Assembly (NCBI RefSeq): GCF_014359955.1
Contig: NZ_JACIYL010000064.1
Location: 1-10,656 of the forward strand
Direction: 5' to 3'
Source: Thermogutta sp.
Lineage (GTDB): Bacteria; Planctomycetota; Planctomycetia; Pirellulales; Thermoguttaceae
DNA: 10,656 nucleotides
Every line of letters starts with the position of its first letter. Position 1 is the stretch's first letter. Both the position numbers and the translations under genes were made by a program. The notes beneath the pieces were generated by a model. The model was given only the letters and a program-made list of their open reading frames with translations. It ran no database searches and was not told the DNA's origin. Positions 3,612 to 10,656 of the stretch are shown here, in pieces.

Positions 3612-5018
3612 TCAGTTGGCCGTCAAATCGAGGCAAACCATCTCCGTGCTGCTGCGAACAATCAGGCGGCCCTTTACAATCGCCATGGGCCCCCAGCAGT
3701 CGTGTCCCTCAAGCACCCGAGCCTGTGCCAGAGGTCGGAAGGCCTCGGGAGTCGCTTCCGCCATGGTCAGTGTGCCGTTGTCGTCGAGTGCCAGCAGCAG
3801 GCCATTTGCGATCATATACGGTCCCAATCCGAATCGGTACTGGGAACCGCTCGCCCAGCGCTGGTTGCCGTTCAGGTCCAGGCAAACCATCTGCTTATCT
3901 TTTTCCCGCACGCCGTAGATAAACCCTTTGTACAGCACGGGGGTTTGCTGGGTCGAGCCGAACTGCTGGGGAGGAAGCCGTGATTCCACCGCGGGGATAA
4001 TCCTGTCGCCCTCTTTTGTTAACCGCATGAACAGGGCCCCTGCATCGTACCCGCCGCAGAAAAAAATGCGATCATCGGGCAGAGGAAGCGGAGACGGGAC
4101 GGTGGCGAGACTGATTTTCCACTCGGGTGTATCCCAAAGGATGGCGCCATCGTCGGCTCGAACCGCGACCACGCCCCCTGTCGCGCAGTACACATACATG
4201 CGCATCCCCTGAAAGACGACCGGCATGATCGAAGAATGAGTCATTTTCCAGTCGCGTGGATTGGGTGTTCGCCACAACTCTTTGCCCGTTGCCGCGTCAA
4301 GGGCGACCATAAGGGCTTCAGGGCCACCCGGCGCGAGGATGACCCGGTCGTTTTCCACCAGGGGACATTGACCGGTGTACCAGGGAGGCACGGTGGCTCC
4401 CCAGCGTTCCGCCATGTCGATGAGCCAGTACTTTTCGCCCGTCAGACGATCCAGACAGGCCACGTGGCACTTCGGGCCGATGGTCACCACATACTTGTCG
4501 GTCACCGTTGGGATGGTACGGGACATGCCATGGTTGCGTTTGACAGTATTGTGATAGCGGAACTGCCAAATATCCCGGCCATCGTCCAGCGAAAGACAGC
4601 GGACGACGTCCTCTTCCTTTTCACGATCGTAGTCGATCATGTACACCCGCCCGTCCTTGATCGCCGCTGCCGCAAATCCCTCCCCTACTTCGATGGACCA
4701 GATGCGCCGGGGTCCTTCCGGGGGCCAGGAGCGGGCCAGCGTCACGCTGGGATCTTCCCAAATGGCGTCCAGATTGGGCCCGCGGAACCTCGGCCATTCC
4801 CCTGGAACCGATGAAGGTTTCCCATCCAGCGTCACAAGTGTGCCGGATAGCTCGTGTTTTTCGGACTCCTGTCTCATCGGGCGGACAGGCCGATCCAGTC
4901 CTGGCACGCGGCGTGCCAGCGGCGGTGCCGGCACCGCGACCATCCAAATGACAATCGCCCCCAATCCCAGGAGGGCGACGGTGAGCGGAAGGAGAACTGT
5001 CCAAGCGAAGGATCGCAT
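3612..5018 (-). CDS. Membrane-anchored PQQ-like (BamB-type) beta-propeller protein
   Basis: This is a 468-residue protein with an N-terminal membrane helix (about residues 7-28) and an exported domain opening with EWPRFRGPN (74-82), a start often seen in planctomycete PQQ-repeat proteins. Several repeats have the typical form 'hydrophobic strand, LD..TG..LW': CLDRLTGEKYW (188-198), ALDAATGKELW (239-249), AVRADDGAILW (285-295) and CLDLNGNQRW (379-388). That fits a multi-bladed propeller. No dehydrogenase-specific catalytic motif (such as the vicinal disulphide or calcium site of methanol dehydrogenase) is evident, so I would not call it an enzyme; a binding or scaffold role outside the cell is more likely. 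Its start lies 23 bases after the Gfo/Idh/MocA stop, which suggests cotranscription. There is no good Shine-Dalgarno before ATG 5018, so translational coupling to the upstream gene is plausible. Confidence 0.87.
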   Translation of the reverse strand: MRSFAWTVLLPLTVALLGLGAIVIWMVAVPAPPLARRVPGLDRPVRPMRQESEKHELSGTLVTLDGKPSSVPGEWPRFRGPNLDAIWEDPSVTLARSWPPEGPRRIWSIEVGEGFAAAAIKDGRVYMIDYDREKEEDVVRCLSLDDGRDIWQFRYHNTVKRNHGMSRTIPTVTDKYVVTIGPKCHVACLDRLTGEKYWLIDMAERWGATVPPWYTGQCPLVENDRVILAPGGPEALMVALDAATGKELWRTPNPRDWKMTHSSIMPVVFQGMRMYVYCATGGVVAVRADDGAILWDTPEWKISLATVPSPLPLPDDRIFFCGGYDAGALFMRLTKEGDRIIPAVESRLPPQQFGSTQQTPVLYKGFIYGVREKDKQMVCLDLNGNQRWASGSQYRFGLGPYMIANGLLLALDDNGTLTMAEATPEAFRPLAQARVLEGHDCWGPMAIVKGRLIVRSSTEMVCLDLTAN

Positions 5019-5041
5019 ACGGCAACGCGAATGGCGGCGAG

Positions 5042-6244
5042 TTACTCCTTGAGGCCTGTCACATCAAAGTCCCATCGTTCGTTTGTGGCCAGCATTTGGT
5101 CCCACGTGACCTCTGCTTTTTGGTACGCAGCCATCCGCCCAAGGATCGTCGTGAGATTGCTGCGGACGCTGGGAGCCACGGTGGGATTGCTGAAATCCCC
5201 CTTGGTAATGGCCTCATAAAAGGTAGCAATGTTTGTTTTCGCACCATCTGTGTAAAGATTGCCAGTCGGGCCGCCTGGAAAAGGCTTTTTCCCCTGGATG
5301 CTGATCGTTCCAAAATAATGGGTGTCGGCCGTTCCTTCCGTGCCGAAGATGCGACAGCCGATGTCGTCATAACCGGCCCCGTACTGTTTGGATGCGAATG
5401 TGAGAATGACCTCATTGGGAAAGGTGAAGATGACGGAGAAATGATCCCAGCAGTCGCCAGGTCCGGTTTTGCCTTTGCGACCGCCCAATCCGTAAGCTCG
5501 CTCGGGAGCCGCATCCAGGAACCAGGTGGCCACGTCCAGCGCATGGATGTTCTGTTCAGTGATGATGTCACCAGAAAGAACCCGAAAGGCCCCCCATGCC
5601 CGAAGGACATGTTCCGGGTTTTTCACATCCAGATCGGCGGGCGCCACCCAGGTGGGACCACAATAATACACCGCCTCGGCACTCACAATCGTGCCGATAT
5701 CACCCGCCTGAACACGGCGAACCGCCTCCTGATAAAGCGGGCAGGCACGGGTTTGAAAGTCCACAAGAAAGGCCAGTTTTTTGGATGTCGCCTTCTGGCC
5801 TGCCTGTTCAATGACCCGGCACCCCGCCACATCGACAGCCACGGGTTTGGCCAGGAAAACGTGCACGCCGGCCTCGACGGCTGCGGCAGCCTGTTCAGGA
5901 TGAAAGAATGGGGGACTTTCAATGGCGACGGCATCCAGGCCGCCGTCGTCCAGCATCCGCCGATGACCCAGCAGTCCGGTGTAACGCCGGTTTTCCGGCA
6001 CCCCAAACTGCGTCCCCGCTGCCTCGGCCCGGTCGGCGAAATAATCGTGGACCGCCGCAATCGCGTAGCCTCCGTGTTCCCGGAACAGGTTGGCGATCCA
6101 GCGGCCCCGGCCACCACATCCAATAAGTCCCAGGCGGATCCGCGAGTTGGCTTCACTCCCGAAAACCCGGTCACGACGGATCAACGAAGCCACGGCTACG
6201 CCGCCAGCAGCCAGAAATGTCCGGCGATCGGTCCTGCTCGGCAT
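5042..6244 (-). CDS. Tat-exported Gfo/Idh/MocA family oxidoreductase
   Basis: This is a 400-residue protein, normal length for the family. It begins with a Tat-like signal (TDRRTFLAAGG, residues 5-15, then a short hydrophobic part). Next comes a Rossmann fold with G42-x-G44-x2-G47 for NAD(P) binding. The family's usual EKP catalytic motif reads AKP here (132-134, lysine K133 kept). Further on is NIHALD (232-237), matching the family's conserved His/Asp region. The C-terminal domain includes FGTEGTA (300-306), typical of sugar or inositol-like substrates. In the family these enzymes oxidise or reduce polyol and sugar carbons with NAD(P); an exported copy must fold with cofactor inside before Tat export. 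ATG 6244 is chosen because AGGAGG lies 7 bases ahead and the Tat signal follows at once; longer in-frame starts (to 6367) add unrelated sequence. The substrate is unknown. Confidence 0.9.
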   Translation of the reverse strand: MPSRTDRRTFLAAGGVAVASLIRRDRVFGSEANSRIRLGLIGCGGRGRWIANLFREHGGYAIAAVHDYFADRAEAAGTQFGVPENRRYTGLLGHRRMLDDGGLDAVAIESPPFFHPEQAAAAVEAGVHVFLAKPVAVDVAGCRVIEQAGQKATSKKLAFLVDFQTRACPLYQEAVRRVQAGDIGTIVSAEAVYYCGPTWVAPADLDVKNPEHVLRAWGAFRVLSGDIITEQNIHALDVATWFLDAAPERAYGLGGRKGKTGPGDCWDHFSVIFTFPNEVILTFASKQYGAGYDDIGCRIFGTEGTADTHYFGTISIQGKKPFPGGPTGNLYTDGAKTNIATFYEAITKGDFSNPTVAPSVRSNLTTILGRMAAYQKAEVTWDQMLATNERWDFDVTGLKE

Positions 6245-6251
6245 GCTCTGT

Positions 6252-6257
6252 CCTCCT
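6252..6257 (-). promoter_or_regulatory. Shine-Dalgarno of the Gfo/Idh/MocA gene
   Basis: A perfect AGGAGG on the minus strand, 7 bases before ATG 6244. It settles the start against the 41-residue longer in-frame reading. Confidence 0.8.
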
Positions 6258-6334
6258 GGTGTATGCGCGTTTTGGGGGATTCTCCGAGTGATGTAAGCAC
6301 GCTCCACATTCGTTCCGCGACATTTCCGAGGGCC

Positions 6335-6350
6335 AGAGGCGGAGGCCTCT
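6335..6350 (-). repeat. Short inverted repeat in the hydrolase-Gfo/Idh/MocA gap
   Basis: AGAGGC and GCCTCT face each other across a 4-base loop, giving a 6-bp GC-rich hairpin about 90 bases upstream of the Gfo/Idh/MocA start. Neither strand has a T run after it, so it is not a clear intrinsic terminator. The rest of the 189-base gap (6245-6433) shows no gene. The hairpin may slow polymerase or be chance. Confidence 0.4.
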
Positions 6351-6433
6351 CGTATTTCGCCCCACACTGCCTGAACGGTGGCTAAGAAACCCTCGGGGTG
6401 TCCTGCAGGAAAGCTCGCGATCCTGGAATCGAC

Positions 6434-7255
6434 TCAGGAACCCGATTTTTCGGTTGTGCCGGAGCGGACCTGCTGAAACAGCCATTCTCGCAATTCCGGC
6501 TCCTGATAGGCCCGGGACCACGAGTTGTGGCCCACGCCGGGGTATTCCGTGTAGCGCACCTTTCCGCCTGCTTTCTTGAGGGCTTCGACCATGGCTCGGG
6601 ACAGGGCGGGCGGCACCACGGGATCAGCGCCGCCATGGAAGATCCACATCGGAATATGGGCAATTTCCCCGGCACGGGATGTGTCTCCACCACCGCATAT
6701 CGGGACGGCCGCGGCGAAATCATGCGGACGCCGCAGCAAAAGGTCGAACGTGCCAAATCCACCCATCGACAGCCCGGTCACGTAGCACCGATCGGGATCC
6801 ACGCTCAATTCCTTGCGAATTTGGTCAAAAAGCTCGATGACCAGTTTCATGGGACGTGTGAGTTCATTGGGCCAGGGTTGAGACGAATCCGCCTGGCGCC
6901 GAATACCCGCCCACCAGGAATCCCGCGGACATTGTGGAGCAATGAGGATGGCCGGATGCTGGGGATCGAGCACAAGTGTCAGAAATTCATCGTTTTTGAG
7001 CTGGGCCTCGTTGTCATCCCCTCGCTCTCCTGCCCCGTGCAGAAAGATGATGAGGGGGTACTTCTTGCTCGGATCGTAGTTTTCCGGCTTCCAGAGACGA
7101 TACGGAAGCGTTTCCCCCTCGGCGTTTTTGTACACCCGTTTTTCCAGTTTGCTGTGGAGCTCTTTGTACATCTGGGCTGAAACAGTCTGGCAGACACTCA
7201 ACCAGGTCAGGACAACCACCGTTCCGACGCCGAAGCCACCGATCCACCGTTTCAT
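6434..7255 (-). CDS. Secreted alpha/beta hydrolase (prolyl oligopeptidase / esterase-depolymerase type)
   Basis: This is a 273-residue protein with a signal peptide (hydrophobic to about residue 25, likely cleavage after VSA, 25-27). The alpha/beta-hydrolase landmarks are in order: oxyanion-hole region FLHGAGERG (71-79), nucleophile elbow GLSMGG (161-166, Ser163), acid D211 in HGGADPVVP (208-216), and base H243 in GVGHNSW (240-246). The catalytic triad is therefore intact. Proteins of this type, often annotated 'prolyl oligopeptidase family' or 'phospholipase/carboxylesterase', cleave esters or polymer-linked acyl groups outside the cell; the precise substrate cannot be read. A GAGAAGGAT Shine-Dalgarno lies 6 bases before ATG 7255. 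The upstream cytochrome unit ends in a terminator, so this gene probably begins its own transcript, possibly continuing into the oxidoreductase gene 189 bases downstream. Confidence 0.9.
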   Translation of the reverse strand: MKRWIGGFGVGTVVVLTWLSVCQTVSAQMYKELHSKLEKRVYKNAEGETLPYRLWKPENYDPSKKYPLIIFLHGAGERGDDNEAQLKNDEFLTLVLDPQHPAILIAPQCPRDSWWAGIRRQADSSQPWPNELTRPMKLVIELFDQIRKELSVDPDRCYVTGLSMGGFGTFDLLLRRPHDFAAAVPICGGGDTSRAGEIAHIPMWIFHGGADPVVPPALSRAMVEALKKAGGKVRYTEYPGVGHNSWSRAYQEPELREWLFQQVRSGTTEKSGS

Positions 7256-7348
7256 GGCATCATCCTTCTCCGAAGCCTACTTCAGGGACCAATTCGAACA
7301 CACCCAGGCATAACCCCCAAAGCATTGCCGTGTAGCCAGAATATCAAG

Positions 7349-7376
7349 AAAAAACGCCGGTGTGAATCCACCGGCG
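7349..7376 (-). terminator. Rho-independent terminator after the cytochrome gene
   Basis: On the minus strand an 8-bp perfect stem (CGCCGGTG / CACCGGCG) with a 6-base loop is followed directly by six T residues. It starts 44 bases after the cytochrome stop codon and separates that gene from the hydrolase gene. Confidence 0.88.
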
Positions 7377-7420
7377 ACAAGTGGCCTGTCTTAACTCAGC
7401 CCGAGCCGGGCGAAGGACTC

Positions 7421-7822
7421 TCACCTCATCAGTTCCGGCGGCACGTCCACCGGGAGTTTACCCGCCTTAATCCGATCGCCGAATGTGGGAGACTTTGGAT
7501 CCTTTGGATCGACCTTTTCCTTTTCCACGATTTCCAGGGCCTTCTGGATCTTTTCCTTGTTGCGTGCATCGGTTTTACGGTCCAGCAGCTTGTCCAGGGC
7601 CTGACCGTAGGCATTTCGTTTGGTCTTGTCATCCCCCAAATGGCAGATGTTGCACCCGGCGCGATCAACCAGCTCGGCAAAGGCCCGATCTTTTGGATCG
7701 TTGCTGTCTTTCTTCACGTACCGAGCGATGAACTGGGTGCGAAACTGCGTCACGGCCAGCGCCGTAGAAGCACACCACACGACACCAATCACCAGAGCGA
7801 TGATTCCCAATGGCTTCTTCAT
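7421..7822 (-). CDS. Small secreted monohaem cytochrome c-like protein
   Basis: This is a 133-residue protein with an N-terminal signal peptide (hydrophobic residues 4-21, likely cleavage after ALA at 21-23). It has one haem c motif, C57-N-I-C60-H61, and a lysine/aspartate-rich, probably helical remainder. Covalent haem attachment outside the membrane and a role in electron transfer follow from the motif. H61 is the only histidine, and the only methionine after the initiator is M132, next to last, so the second haem ligand is not obvious. The Shine-Dalgarno AGGAGG (7833-7838) lies 10 bases before ATG 7822. The gene stands alone: a 453-base gap upstream and a terminator downstream suggest its own promoter and a monocistronic message. 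I do not recognise a named cytochrome subfamily. Confidence 0.85.
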   Translation of the reverse strand: MKKPLGIIALVIGVVWCASTALAVTQFRTQFIARYVKKDSNDPKDRAFAELVDRAGCNICHLGDDKTKRNAYGQALDKLLDRKTDARNKEKIQKALEIVEKEKVDPKDPKSPTFGDRIKAGKLPVDVPPELMR

Positions 7823-7855
7823 CGGGTCAATACCTCCTCATGTCGTCTTCTATTC

Positions 7856-7863
7856 GAACGTTC
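7856..7863. repeat. 8-bp palindrome GAACGTTC in the cytochrome leader/promoter
   Basis: A perfect palindrome, 33 bases upstream of the cytochrome ATG and overlapping a TTCGAA palindrome at 7853-7858. It could be an operator half-site pair, but a single short palindrome is weak evidence. Confidence 0.25.
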
Positions 7864-8098
7864 TATCGCAACACACACGATCCCATTTTGATTCGCAGAT
7901 TCTTCTGTGGTTGCCGTTCCTTCCACCGCTTCCCGCTTGTGGTGGAGCGGTTAGCCCCATGGTTCTTCCGGCGCAGTGAAGTTTGCCACAACGCCCCATT
8001 CGCTCTTGCGTATGTGGAACCCCCCTTTCCGGAAACCGGAGTCTCCGCACGGCCTACGGGGGGACTTATCCAAGTGGCGGGAAGTCGCGTGGCAGTTG

Positions 8099-8140
8099 CC
8101 CCCGAACGGCAAAGCAAGGGGCGTTGCCTTGCTTTCGGGG
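8099..8140. repeat. Strong interrupted inverted repeat between the thiE-fusion and cytochrome genes
   Basis: AAAGCAAGG (8111-8119) pairs with CCTTGCTTT (8127-8135) across a 7-base loop. Outer arms CCCCG (8100-8104) and CGGGG (8136-8140) extend the stem after a one-sided bulge of six bases. It is GC-rich and would be stable in RNA of either strand. No T run follows on either side, so it is not a standard terminator. It could be part of a structured leader or a small RNA. Confidence 0.55.
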
Positions 8141-8226
8141 TCTTTGCATTGCTCAGACCTTCCCGGAAGCAACCTTCCCAATTTTATGCCAGTTGGAAAG
8201 GCATTTGCCAGATTTTACCATCGTTT

Positions 8227-8263
8227 CAGGCCAGGTTCCAATGAATTGCAACGGAAAGGCCTG
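8227..8263 (-). repeat. Imperfect hairpin just after the thiE-fusion stop codon
   Basis: CAGGCC (8227-8232) and GGCCTG (8258-8263) form an outer stem, TTCC (8236-8239) with GGAA (8253-8256) an inner one, and CAAT/ATTG (8239-8248) can pair in the loop as an alternative. It begins 12 bases beyond the stop codon in the direction of transcription. There is no T run after it, so at best it is a weak terminator or a 3' end stabiliser. Confidence 0.4.
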
Positions 8264-8275
8264 TTCTGTGGCCGC

Positions 8276-10114
8276 TCAGCGGGTGGACGTACCCTGAAGT
8301 CTGGCCAGCAGCCGTTTCGCAGCCGCTGACGGATCGGGAGCCTCCACGACGGCGGCGGATACCGCCACGCGGGAAATTCCCGTGTTCAGCACTTCTTCAA
8401 TATTCGACTCGTTAATGCCCCCAATGGCAAATGCGGGCAAAGTGATTTCTGAGGCCACCTGTCGCAAGAACTCCAATCCGGGGAAGTGCGAAAACTGTTT
8501 GGTTGAGGACGGAAACGTCGGGCCACATCCAATGTAATTGGCCCCATCGAGGACAGCCCGTCGGGCCTGCTCGATATCATGGGTGGAAACGCCTATCAAC
8601 ATGTCCGGGCCTACAAGGGTGCGGACATCTTTGACCGTCAGCTCCTCCTGGCCCACATGGACCCCATCCGCTTGACTCAGCACGGCCAGGTCCGGGCGAT
8701 CATTCATGATGAACAACGTTTGTGTGCCGCGGGTGATTTTGCGAAGCATGCGGGCCCTCTCCAGGAGTAAACGATCCTCAAGCTTTTTTTCGCGGAGCTG
8801 GATCACGTGAACGCCCACCCGAACGAGCGCCGTCACCAGGGCCCGAAATTCTTCGGCTGAAGGCCGGGCATCCACCAGGACATAAAGTCGCGCGTTGTGC
8901 AGACGTTCCCGGGAGAGTTCAGTAATGCGGACAGCCCGATGCAGCGTGTAACAGCGGTAGCGAAGTTGTTCAAATCGCTCTGCCAACTCGGGTTGGAGCA
9001 CCTTCGCGCATTCCTCAATGCTGCGGATGGCCTCGCGAACACGGGATAAATTCGCATCGACCAGTCCCTCGACGGATTCCCGTTTCATCTCGTGGGAGTG
9101 CTTGATCCGGGTGCCGACATCGGATTGAGTTTCCCGAGCAGCGAGGCGGTAAGTCATGGGAAACTCCCCCGAGAGCTGCGAAAACGCGTGGCGGATGTCT
9201 TTCAGCTCACCCACCAGAAAAGGATCATCCAGCACAAACCGGCCATAATCTTCCACAACCCGAAGGCCTTCCAACGCACGGTTGATCGCGGCATCCACAA
9301 TGCGATAAAGTCCCATCGCAGTGGATGGGGTGAGTGACGGAATGCTGTCCCCGTTTTTTCGCTTGCCGGACGATACGTTCCGAGAATCTGCTGGCGTTTC
9401 TTTTCGCTGAAAATCTTTTCCTTCGCCAGGTTGCGAAGGATGGCTGGGCACAGTTTCCGCGTCATTTGTCTCGGGCGGAGATGTCGATTCCACCTCCTCG
9501 GACAGCGGAAGACTTTCCTTCTCGCCTCCCACGGCTTCCTCTGGTGACGGCCGCCACTGCCCACCAGTGCCGTAGCGCTGCAGAATCTGCTGCCGGAGTT
9601 GTGCGAAATTCAACCCCTGTTCGCGAAGCCAGTCGGCGACGGGATGATCGCAGCCTGCCAGTCCCAAGAGCAAATGCTCCGTCGAGATAATCGGCGGCCA
9701 GTCACCCCAGTCCATGTACAGATCGACCGCTGTGAAAAGGCTTTTCACTTCCGGATGAAATTGGGGGGGTGACTCCAGGGGGATCGGGGGTGGCTCCGCA
9801 GACCGATGGAGCTCCGGCCAGCGGGCGAGAAGCAATTCCTCGCTGATACCGAGTTCCCGCAAAATCATTGCCGCGCGGCACTCAGGTTCAGCGAGCAGAC
9901 CCATGAGGATACTGACCAGCCGGAGACCGCCGAACCCTTCTCCGTACTGCCAGGTTGCGGCGGCAGCCAGCGCGCGAAGCGCTCCTGGGGTAAATTCGCG
10001 TTCCATGGGAGTTGAGGGAAGCCTAACTTCTGTGAATTCCGGCGGCTTTTCCGCATGCGTGATTCTCGATAAATCGCGCGAGGCGACGATGCACCGCATG
10101 GCGGCCATCTTCAC
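8276..10114 (-). CDS. thiE: Clp_N-like / ThiD2 / ThiE fusion protein (thiamine phosphate synthase)
   Basis: This is a 612-residue protein with three parts. Residues about 40-180 resemble the double Clp_N repeat of ClpA/ClpC: EFTPGALRAL (40-49) and STEHLLLGL (144-152). Residues about 181-265 are a low-complexity, Pro/Glu/Ser-rich linker. Residues about 267-397 match the ThiD2 domain known as an N-terminal partner of some ThiE proteins (DAAINRALEGLRVVEDY, 274-290). Residues about 408-608 are a full thiamine phosphate synthase: QLREK (439-443), NDRPDLA (471-477), DGVHVGQEEL (483-492), GVSTH (508-512), GPTFPSSTKQ (531-540) and AIGGI (563-567). It couples HMP pyrophosphate to thiazole phosphate in the cytoplasm to give thiamine phosphate. 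ThiD2-ThiE fusion is known; the Clp_N addition is unusual. There is no Clp ATPase. The start is uncertain: GTG 10114, ATG 10108, ATG 10099 or ATG 10006, none with a good Shine-Dalgarno. Confidence 0.88.
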   Translation of the reverse strand: MKMAAMRCIVASRDLSRITHAEKPPEFTEVRLPSTPMEREFTPGALRALAAAATWQYGEGFGGLRLVSILMGLLAEPECRAAMILRELGISEELLLARWPELHRSAEPPPIPLESPPQFHPEVKSLFTAVDLYMDWGDWPPIISTEHLLLGLAGCDHPVADWLREQGLNFAQLRQQILQRYGTGGQWRPSPEEAVGGEKESLPLSEEVESTSPPETNDAETVPSHPSQPGEGKDFQRKETPADSRNVSSGKRKNGDSIPSLTPSTAMGLYRIVDAAINRALEGLRVVEDYGRFVLDDPFLVGELKDIRHAFSQLSGEFPMTYRLAARETQSDVGTRIKHSHEMKRESVEGLVDANLSRVREAIRSIEECAKVLQPELAERFEQLRYRCYTLHRAVRITELSRERLHNARLYVLVDARPSAEEFRALVTALVRVGVHVIQLREKKLEDRLLLERARMLRKITRGTQTLFIMNDRPDLAVLSQADGVHVGQEELTVKDVRTLVGPDMLIGVSTHDIEQARRAVLDGANYIGCGPTFPSSTKQFSHFPGLEFLRQVASEITLPAFAIGGINESNIEEVLNTGISRVAVSAAVVEAPDPSAAAKRLLARLQGTSTR

Positions 10115-10150
10115 TTCATGGTACAGAACGGCGGCTCCGCATGGAAAGGG

Positions 10151-10656
10151 TTACAGCAGGCGAAGCCTGGGCATCAACCGCGCCAGACTTTTCTGGAGCG
10201 CGGAGCGCAGGCTCGGCCAGATGGCACCCCTGCGGTGAGGTTGCACCTCGGAAATGGCCAGATAGGAGCGAAAACTGGTGAGGAGTTCTTCCAACCGGGC
10301 AGCAATTTCCCGACGACGCCGTTCCCGGGTGGACTTCGGGGTGATCTTGATTCGGAAGCACGACCGAGCGGGCGTTTCCTCGTTGGCGGGTTTGTCTTCG
10401 CTCATGACCACCACCATGTCGAAGCACACGGGCCGGTCCGAACGGCGTCGGCTGCGGAGGGGATTCCTGACCTCGATCTCCATTTCCAGGCGATTCCCCT
10501 GAACCTTGCGAATCCGCGCCTGGTGATCCGCAATGAATCCGTGCAGTTTTTCCACAGCCAGAGCGAGTGGAAATGGGCTGATGAGGGTCTCTTCCACGGA
10601 GACCTCTGGCGATGCGGAACGCCACCACCAGTGTTTGGAACTGACAGGTGTGGTCT
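10151..10656 (-). CDS. Protein of unknown function, 5' end beyond window
   Basis: The frame is open from the right edge to the stop at 10151 (167 residues visible) with no stop in between, so the gene most likely begins outside the window. A GTG at 10597 would give a 148-residue protein, but the open upstream residues (including KHWWWRS) argue for a longer one. I do not recognise the family. The visible part is soluble, with a strand-like centre (NRLEMEIEV and VCFDMVVVM), an Arg-rich helix near the end (STRERRRREIAARLEEL) and a basic C-terminus. It lies 36 bases before the ThiE-fusion gene and is probably cotranscribed with it. Any link to thiamine metabolism is only positional. Confidence 0.65.
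   Translation of the reverse strand, partial: TTPVSSKHWWWRSASPEVSVEETLISPFPLALAVEKLHGFIADHQARIRKVQGNRLEMEIEVRNPLRSRRRSDRPVCFDMVVVMSEDKPANEETPARSCFRIKITPKSTRERRRREIAARLEELLTSFRSYLAISEVQPHRRGAIWPSLRSALQKSLARLMPRLRLL

Follow-up and report, generated by a model that had tools for sequence, protein, structure and literature searches.

In a 10,656-nucleotide stretch of Thermogutta sp. DNA (contig NZ_JACIYL010000064.1 of assembly GCF_014359955.1; hereafter the window), one gene encodes a bifunctional enzyme whose catalytic domains, ThiD2 and ThiE, are preceded by a double Clp_N domain that is folded and under constraint (Table 1). Together with the distribution of this N-terminal head among relatives, the arrangement suggests that vitamin B1 synthesis may be tied to protein quality control in a planctomycete class. 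The original prediction had proposed a Clp_N double repeat, a linker, ThiD2 and ThiE within a single open reading frame (ORF), an architecture that was confirmed by Pfam matches and by the predicted fold. PF17792 (ThiD2) matched with 129.1 bits (cut-off 23.5), the ThiE region exceeded the cut-offs of TIGR00693 and PF02581, and the protein as a whole passed that of NF002727 (378.7 against 335 bits). Across 48 sequences, Q439, R441, N471, D472, D483, S510, K539, G565 and G566 of ThiE, which we take to be active-site residues, were invariant. ThiD2 is a hydroxymethylpyrimidine (HMP) phosphate kinase (PMC12345177). PF02861 (Clp_N) matched with 35.5 bits against a cut-off of 20.7. A match to both repeats had been expected; the second repeat exceeded the cut-off and the fold comprises two repeats, but the first repeat was not matched above the cut-off. 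A structure search with the whole model returned only ThiE-like barrels among the best 50 matches, and a separate model of the N-domain was therefore made; in it, the N-terminal part contains four-helix repeats arranged in tandem that adopt the Clp N-domain fold. Both a match and a fold of the Clp_N type were thus found within residues 40-180, where they had been proposed. No AAA+ family occurred among the Pfam matches of the 612-amino-acid (aa) ORF at E-values up to 1, and the predicted local distance difference test score (pLDDT) was below 50 for linker residues 184-191 and 193-256.

The ratio of nonsynonymous to synonymous substitution rates (dN/dS) was determined by the Nei-Gojobori method, mainly between the window and the congener G167, whose homologue is 85% identical; in a comparison with two congeners, window positions 4796-10656 aligned to the compared stretch of G167. 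The ratio was 0.045 for the Clp_N part (residues 35-190), 0.053 for ThiD2 and 0.102 for ThiE, and reached 0.86 for linker residues 191-268, 0.82 for residues 1-34 and 1.08 for the 12 codons preceding the GTG proposed originally as the start. The Clp_N part is under purifying selection and leader and linker evolve freely, indicating that the Clp_N part is translated. A real start near residue 250, which had been considered at the outset, is not in accordance with these values, and the protein most likely begins at the ATG at position 10006, residue 37 of the 612-aa ORF, giving 576 aa. The pLDDT of leader residues 1-35 was below 50, and a database record of 576 aa (P0001) is 100% identical over the aligned part.

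To determine how widely the head occurs, residues 1-260 were used as query in a protein search restricted to candidates of 0.55-1.75 times the query length. All 69 matches contained ThiD2, 68 contained TMP-TENI, and 54 carried a precomputed Clp_N annotation. A profile of the head was built from these matches and iterated over the reading frames that precede ThiD2 at 134 loci of the class Planctomycetia, a non-random sample comprising the 56 ThiD2-bearing genomes of our set of relatives, 9 loci from among the best of one search list, and 29 from among the best plus 40 hand-picked loci of a second. In this sample, on which the profile itself was iterated, the head was found in 100 of the 134 loci (f3 21/25, f99 21/23, f100 20/20, f101 2/2, f103 2/2 and Pirellulales 34/62), and shuffled controls, ten per region of at least 100 aa, gave no profile match. 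Every family group examined in the class thus displayed the Clp_N–ThiD2–ThiE architecture, confirming the proposed recurrence across genomes. One of the 100 loci, in genome G241, has a ClpC-type head; the others are referred to as old-type. The stock Pfam Clp_N model exceeded its cut-off in eight of nine further fusions, namely in 6/7 old-type fusions (from Singulisphaera acidiphila, Pan216, a Gemmatales metagenome-assembled genome and f3, f100 and f103 genomes; L258 failed) and in 2/2 with a replaced head, and was not among the matches listed for a Nostoc control. The head was absent from all 18 planctomycete ThiD2 loci outside the class. A scan of named genomes identified 11 fused loci among the best 80 of 566 relatives. 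The titles of these 11 refer to Planctomycetia or to unclassified planctomycetes, and the loci from cyanobacteria and Phycisphaerae among the 80 all lacked a fused head. Judging from these loci, the Clp_N head is old within the class Planctomycetia.

In trees of Clp_N domains, the old-type fusion domains formed one clade (41 rows; support 97/91 and 89/90 in two trees) separate from ClpC, ClpB and stand-alone Clp_N proteins. Derivation of the old head from the neighbouring clpC is unsupported, as the head forms its own clade and also occurs where clpC is not adjacent. The fusion of G241 grouped with ClpC instead, its head being 55.6% identical to the N-domain of its own ClpC, the divergently oriented gene of which lies 498 bp away by ORF edges. 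A second genome of the same genus, G429, showed the same arrangement in a frame intact up to the contig end, with Clp_N (92.8 bits) followed by ThiD2. A single clade of G241/G429 with the other fusions was weakly rejected (approximately unbiased test, p-AU 0.036, the test having been chosen after the tree was seen). On a quick ThiD2-ThiE tree, G241 stands beside L123, which bears an old head (SH-aLRT 87), and the ClpC-type head of this genus therefore reads as a replacement, or as loss and regain. More short frames with ClpC-type N-domains, e.g., in G437, G459 and G466, were among the matches listed, and further head replacements may exist. Separately, short Pirellulales frames of 197-407 aa (L228-L235) contain Clp_N repeats but no extended AAA+ region; of these, seven or eight group with ClpC in the trees and may represent decoys or adaptors.

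The reading that we favour, with a probability of about 0.4, is that the head would act as a protein-docking module through which the sole thiamine phosphate synthase of the cell is placed on the ClpC network. The head would bind the usual ligands of Clp N-domains, be it an adaptor, a degron or a stretch that is unfolded, and the ligand would either bring the enzyme to ClpCP or be competed for by enzyme and ClpC. In this way, the synthesis of thiamine phosphate would respond to proteostasis, through turnover of the enzyme or through the enzyme acting as a decoy, and the flexible linker would free the head to move relative to both catalytic domains. Docking is favoured mostly because a second, ClpC-type head has been placed on the same enzyme and because the head is constrained. 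Further support comes from fold and homology, from the age of the clade across the class, from the upstream clpC and from the partner families, as Clp_N proteins were present in 60/60 relatives, ClpS in 51/60 and a McsB-type kinase (PF00217) in 57/60, the latter two also in the genome of the window. In addition, the fusion or its unfused counterpart was the sole TMP-TENI match per genome in 17/17 genomes searched, neither the window nor the loci of nine relatives gave an Rfam match to a thiamine pyrophosphate (TPP) riboswitch, and the enrichment of THIC by a plant CLPC1 trap (PMC8889267) provides a precedent. The tethering to the Clp system put forward in the original prediction is thus plausible. 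A more far-reaching form, in which enzyme and ClpC would share the adaptors or marks that they read (phosphoarginine perhaps among them), protein damage would set B1 output, and a ClpC-type gene would have supplied a fresh head on at least one occasion, appears doubtful.

Several observations weigh against docking. Among the relatives, the head was fused in 34/56 ThiD2-bearing genomes; of the 22 unfused ones, 3 were truncated by the end of a contig, and short ThiD2-only frames accounted for at least two (L112 and L140). The fusion label shifted 16 times on the quick ThiD2-ThiE tree (starred branches force 5), and since the head is also absent in many Pirellulales, it has by this measure often been lost and is hence dispensable. 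ClpC was not found in the window's own assembly (completeness given as 96%); as the sole Clp_N match there was the fusion itself, both genes, clpC and clpB, appear to be absent from the assembly or the strain. The congener G167 has ClpC, the gene of which lies elsewhere on the chromosome. A clpC gene occurred in the flank of 47 loci, always upstream and divergent of the ThiD2 gene, with and without the head (Pirellulales 16 fused and 20 unfused, f3 10 fused and 1 unfused). Within flanks of at least 3.5 kb, clpC was not seen at 10 fused and 5 unfused Pirellulales loci, 5 fused and 3 unfused f3 loci, 19/19 f100 loci, one f101 and two f99 loci; the remaining loci have short flanks. The adjacency was downgraded as functional proof, and the neighbourhood counts as weak evidence because the conserved block is longer than the fusion and also occurs without the head. 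Three further dN/dS comparisons with more distant genomes were saturated or nearly so, and only G200 yielded all three domains, with 0.204 for Clp_N, 0.268 for ThiD2 and 0.116 for ThiE at dS 1.6-2.2; the slower evolution of Clp_N relative to ThiE therefore applies to the G167 pair. Finally, the second phosphoarginine (pArg) site is lost in the head, and the residue pair of the first is shared with ClpB, as detailed below.

The repeated loss of the head while ThiD2-ThiE was kept would also be expected if it were a structural or oligomerization module of the enzyme unconnected to Clp proteases, an alternative of real weight that we nevertheless consider unlikely. It would accord with the position of the old heads in a clade of their own, far from ClpC and ClpB, with the near absence of the second-site pair (2/99 old-type domains) and with the variable equivalent of K85 in the fusion domains. 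However, such a module does not predict that a ClpC-type N-domain was placed on the enzyme a second time, and the long disordered linker also speaks against it.

In the ClpC N-domain, site pArg1 consists of T7 and E106, and pArg2 contains E32 (PMC12583610, EMBO J 2025); the pairing of T81 with E32 is our inference from the internal symmetry of the domain. The protein of the window keeps T42 (T7) and E146 (E106), the latter invariant in the 48-sequence alignment, but carries V67 and H120 at the positions of E32 and T81. The idea that the head might recognize phosphoarginine therefore has half support, the residues of site 1 being kept and those of site 2 lost, and the pattern of ClpB is the same. 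The T7 (T or S) and E106 pair occurred in most old-type heads of Pirellulales (30/33), f3 (20/21), f99 (21/21) and f103 (2/2), and in 4/20 f100 and 0/2 f101 heads, with E replaced by D in 14 of the 20 f100 heads. Both pairs were present in 34/34 ClpC domains and, with T7 as S, in 2/2 replaced fusions; ClpB domains had the first pair in 12/12 and the second in 0/12, and stand-alone Clp_N proteins in 7/8 and 4/8, respectively. ClpB is not known to be a pArg receptor, and E146 was rejected as proof of pArg binding because ClpB domains keep the same pair. The residue pattern fits a half-site pArg reader and equally a ClpB-like inherited fold. A head that would act as a reader or decoy for pArg-marked or damaged proteins or for ClpC regulators, tuning thiamine synthesis or ClpC activity under stress in the manner of mycobacterial ClpC2, is improbable. 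The site-1 pair in most groups, both pairs in the two replaced domains and the frequency of McsB-type kinases are in its favor, but the occurrence of the same pair in ClpB and its scarcity in f100 and f101 are not. McsB was moreover found also where the head is absent; with no correlation, its presence was dismissed as uninformative.

ClpB N-domains bind unfolded segments, and a holdase-like head might likewise serve mainly to maintain the solubility of the enzyme in heat or under stress; as the head also occurs in the mesophile Singulisphaera acidiphila, we regard this as very improbable. An untranslated open frame or chimeric gene model for the N-terminal part has a probability close to nil, as purifying selection, class-wide conservation and the confident fold rule it out from residue 37 on, such behavior being limited to and accepted for residues 1-36, and the spread across the class speaks against a chimera of recent origin or an artefact of the assembly, both of which were rejected.

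Most known Clp N-domains belong to unfoldases. In plants, ClpT1 and ClpT2 are accessory subunits of the ClpPR core and, unlike the planctomycete head, are not fused to an enzyme. The fusion head shares fold, two repeats and sequence homology with the N-domains of ClpC and ClpB (PF02861), but differs in the absence of AAA+ modules, in its own clade and in the lost site-2 residues. The ThiD2-ThiE proteins of cyanobacteria and other planctomycetes (NF002727/PRK02615; PF17792 and PF02581) possess the same catalytic domains in the same order, whereas no Clp_N head was present at the loci examined from cyanobacteria and from outside the Planctomycetia. The mycobacterial ClpC2, described as a sensor and a partial homologue of ClpC1 that acts as a cyclomarin A-binding repressor of its own gene (PMC10030653), is joined to a dimerizing N-terminal domain rather than to two biosynthetic enzymes. 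ClpN repeats likewise occur as portable modules on von Willebrand factor A (vWA) proteins, as rare variants in MoxR-vWA FtsH ternary systems, whose reported hosts include planctomycetes; those are conflict-system proteins, in contrast to the metabolic enzyme described here (PMC7159879). Sequence databases already display the Clp_N–ThiD2–ThiE architecture through their precomputed domain annotations; among the matches listed, no description was found in titles or abstract openings of the open-licence literature. If docking holds true, a constrained Clp_N domain on a core vitamin enzyme would directly wire proteolysis to cofactor supply, and relatives with and without the head would form a natural comparison set.

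Table 1. Coordinates of the fusion gene and related features (window positions unless a locus or contig is named).
Feature	Position	Strand	Remarks
Clp_N–linker–ThiD2–ThiE coding sequence	8276..10006	minus	ATG at 10006, 576 aa plus stop (probable true frame)
Leader between the originally proposed GTG and ATG 10006	10007..10114	minus	probably untranslated
Double Clp_N domain	9572..9994	minus	residues 41-181 in the numbering of the 612-aa ORF; repeats 1 and 2 at about 41-102 and 119-181, respectively
Flexible linker	9329..9565	minus	residues 184-262
ThiD2 domain (HMP-phosphate kinase)	8936..9304	minus	residues 271-393
ThiE/TMP-TENI domain (thiamine phosphate synthase)	8348..8887	minus	residues 410-589
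T42 codon (ClpC T7, pArg1 site)	9989..9991	minus	
E146 codon (ClpC E106, pArg1 site)	9677..9679	minus	
ClpC-type N-domain on ThiD2(-ThiE), beside divergent clpC	L119:4934-6523 and L352:1-999 (minus)		two genomes, one genus
McsB-type kinase of the window's genome	G000:C145:4468-5067	minus	
Gene with TPR-like matches between thiD2-thiE and clpC	L342:6312-7295 and relatives		

In 20 neighbourhood loci preselected for a nearby clpC, a conserved gene with tetratricopeptide repeat (TPR)-like matches below the Pfam cut-offs was located between thiD2-thiE and clpC in 15, and mlaE, an ATP-binding cassette (ABC) ATPase gene and mlaD followed beyond clpC in 11. All further observations within the window concern the minus strand. 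At 7347-7413, a sub-threshold Rfam match to anti-hemB RNA (23.4 against 49.5 bits) is probably due to chance. Just upstream of the fusion, an ORF of 148 aa (10151-10597), open to the contig end, had no Pfam or NCBIfam match above cut-off. Positions 1-1848 encode two adjoining iron-sulphur proteins, one with Fer4_5 domains that is cut by the end of the window and the other a ferredoxin-like protein of 222 aa.
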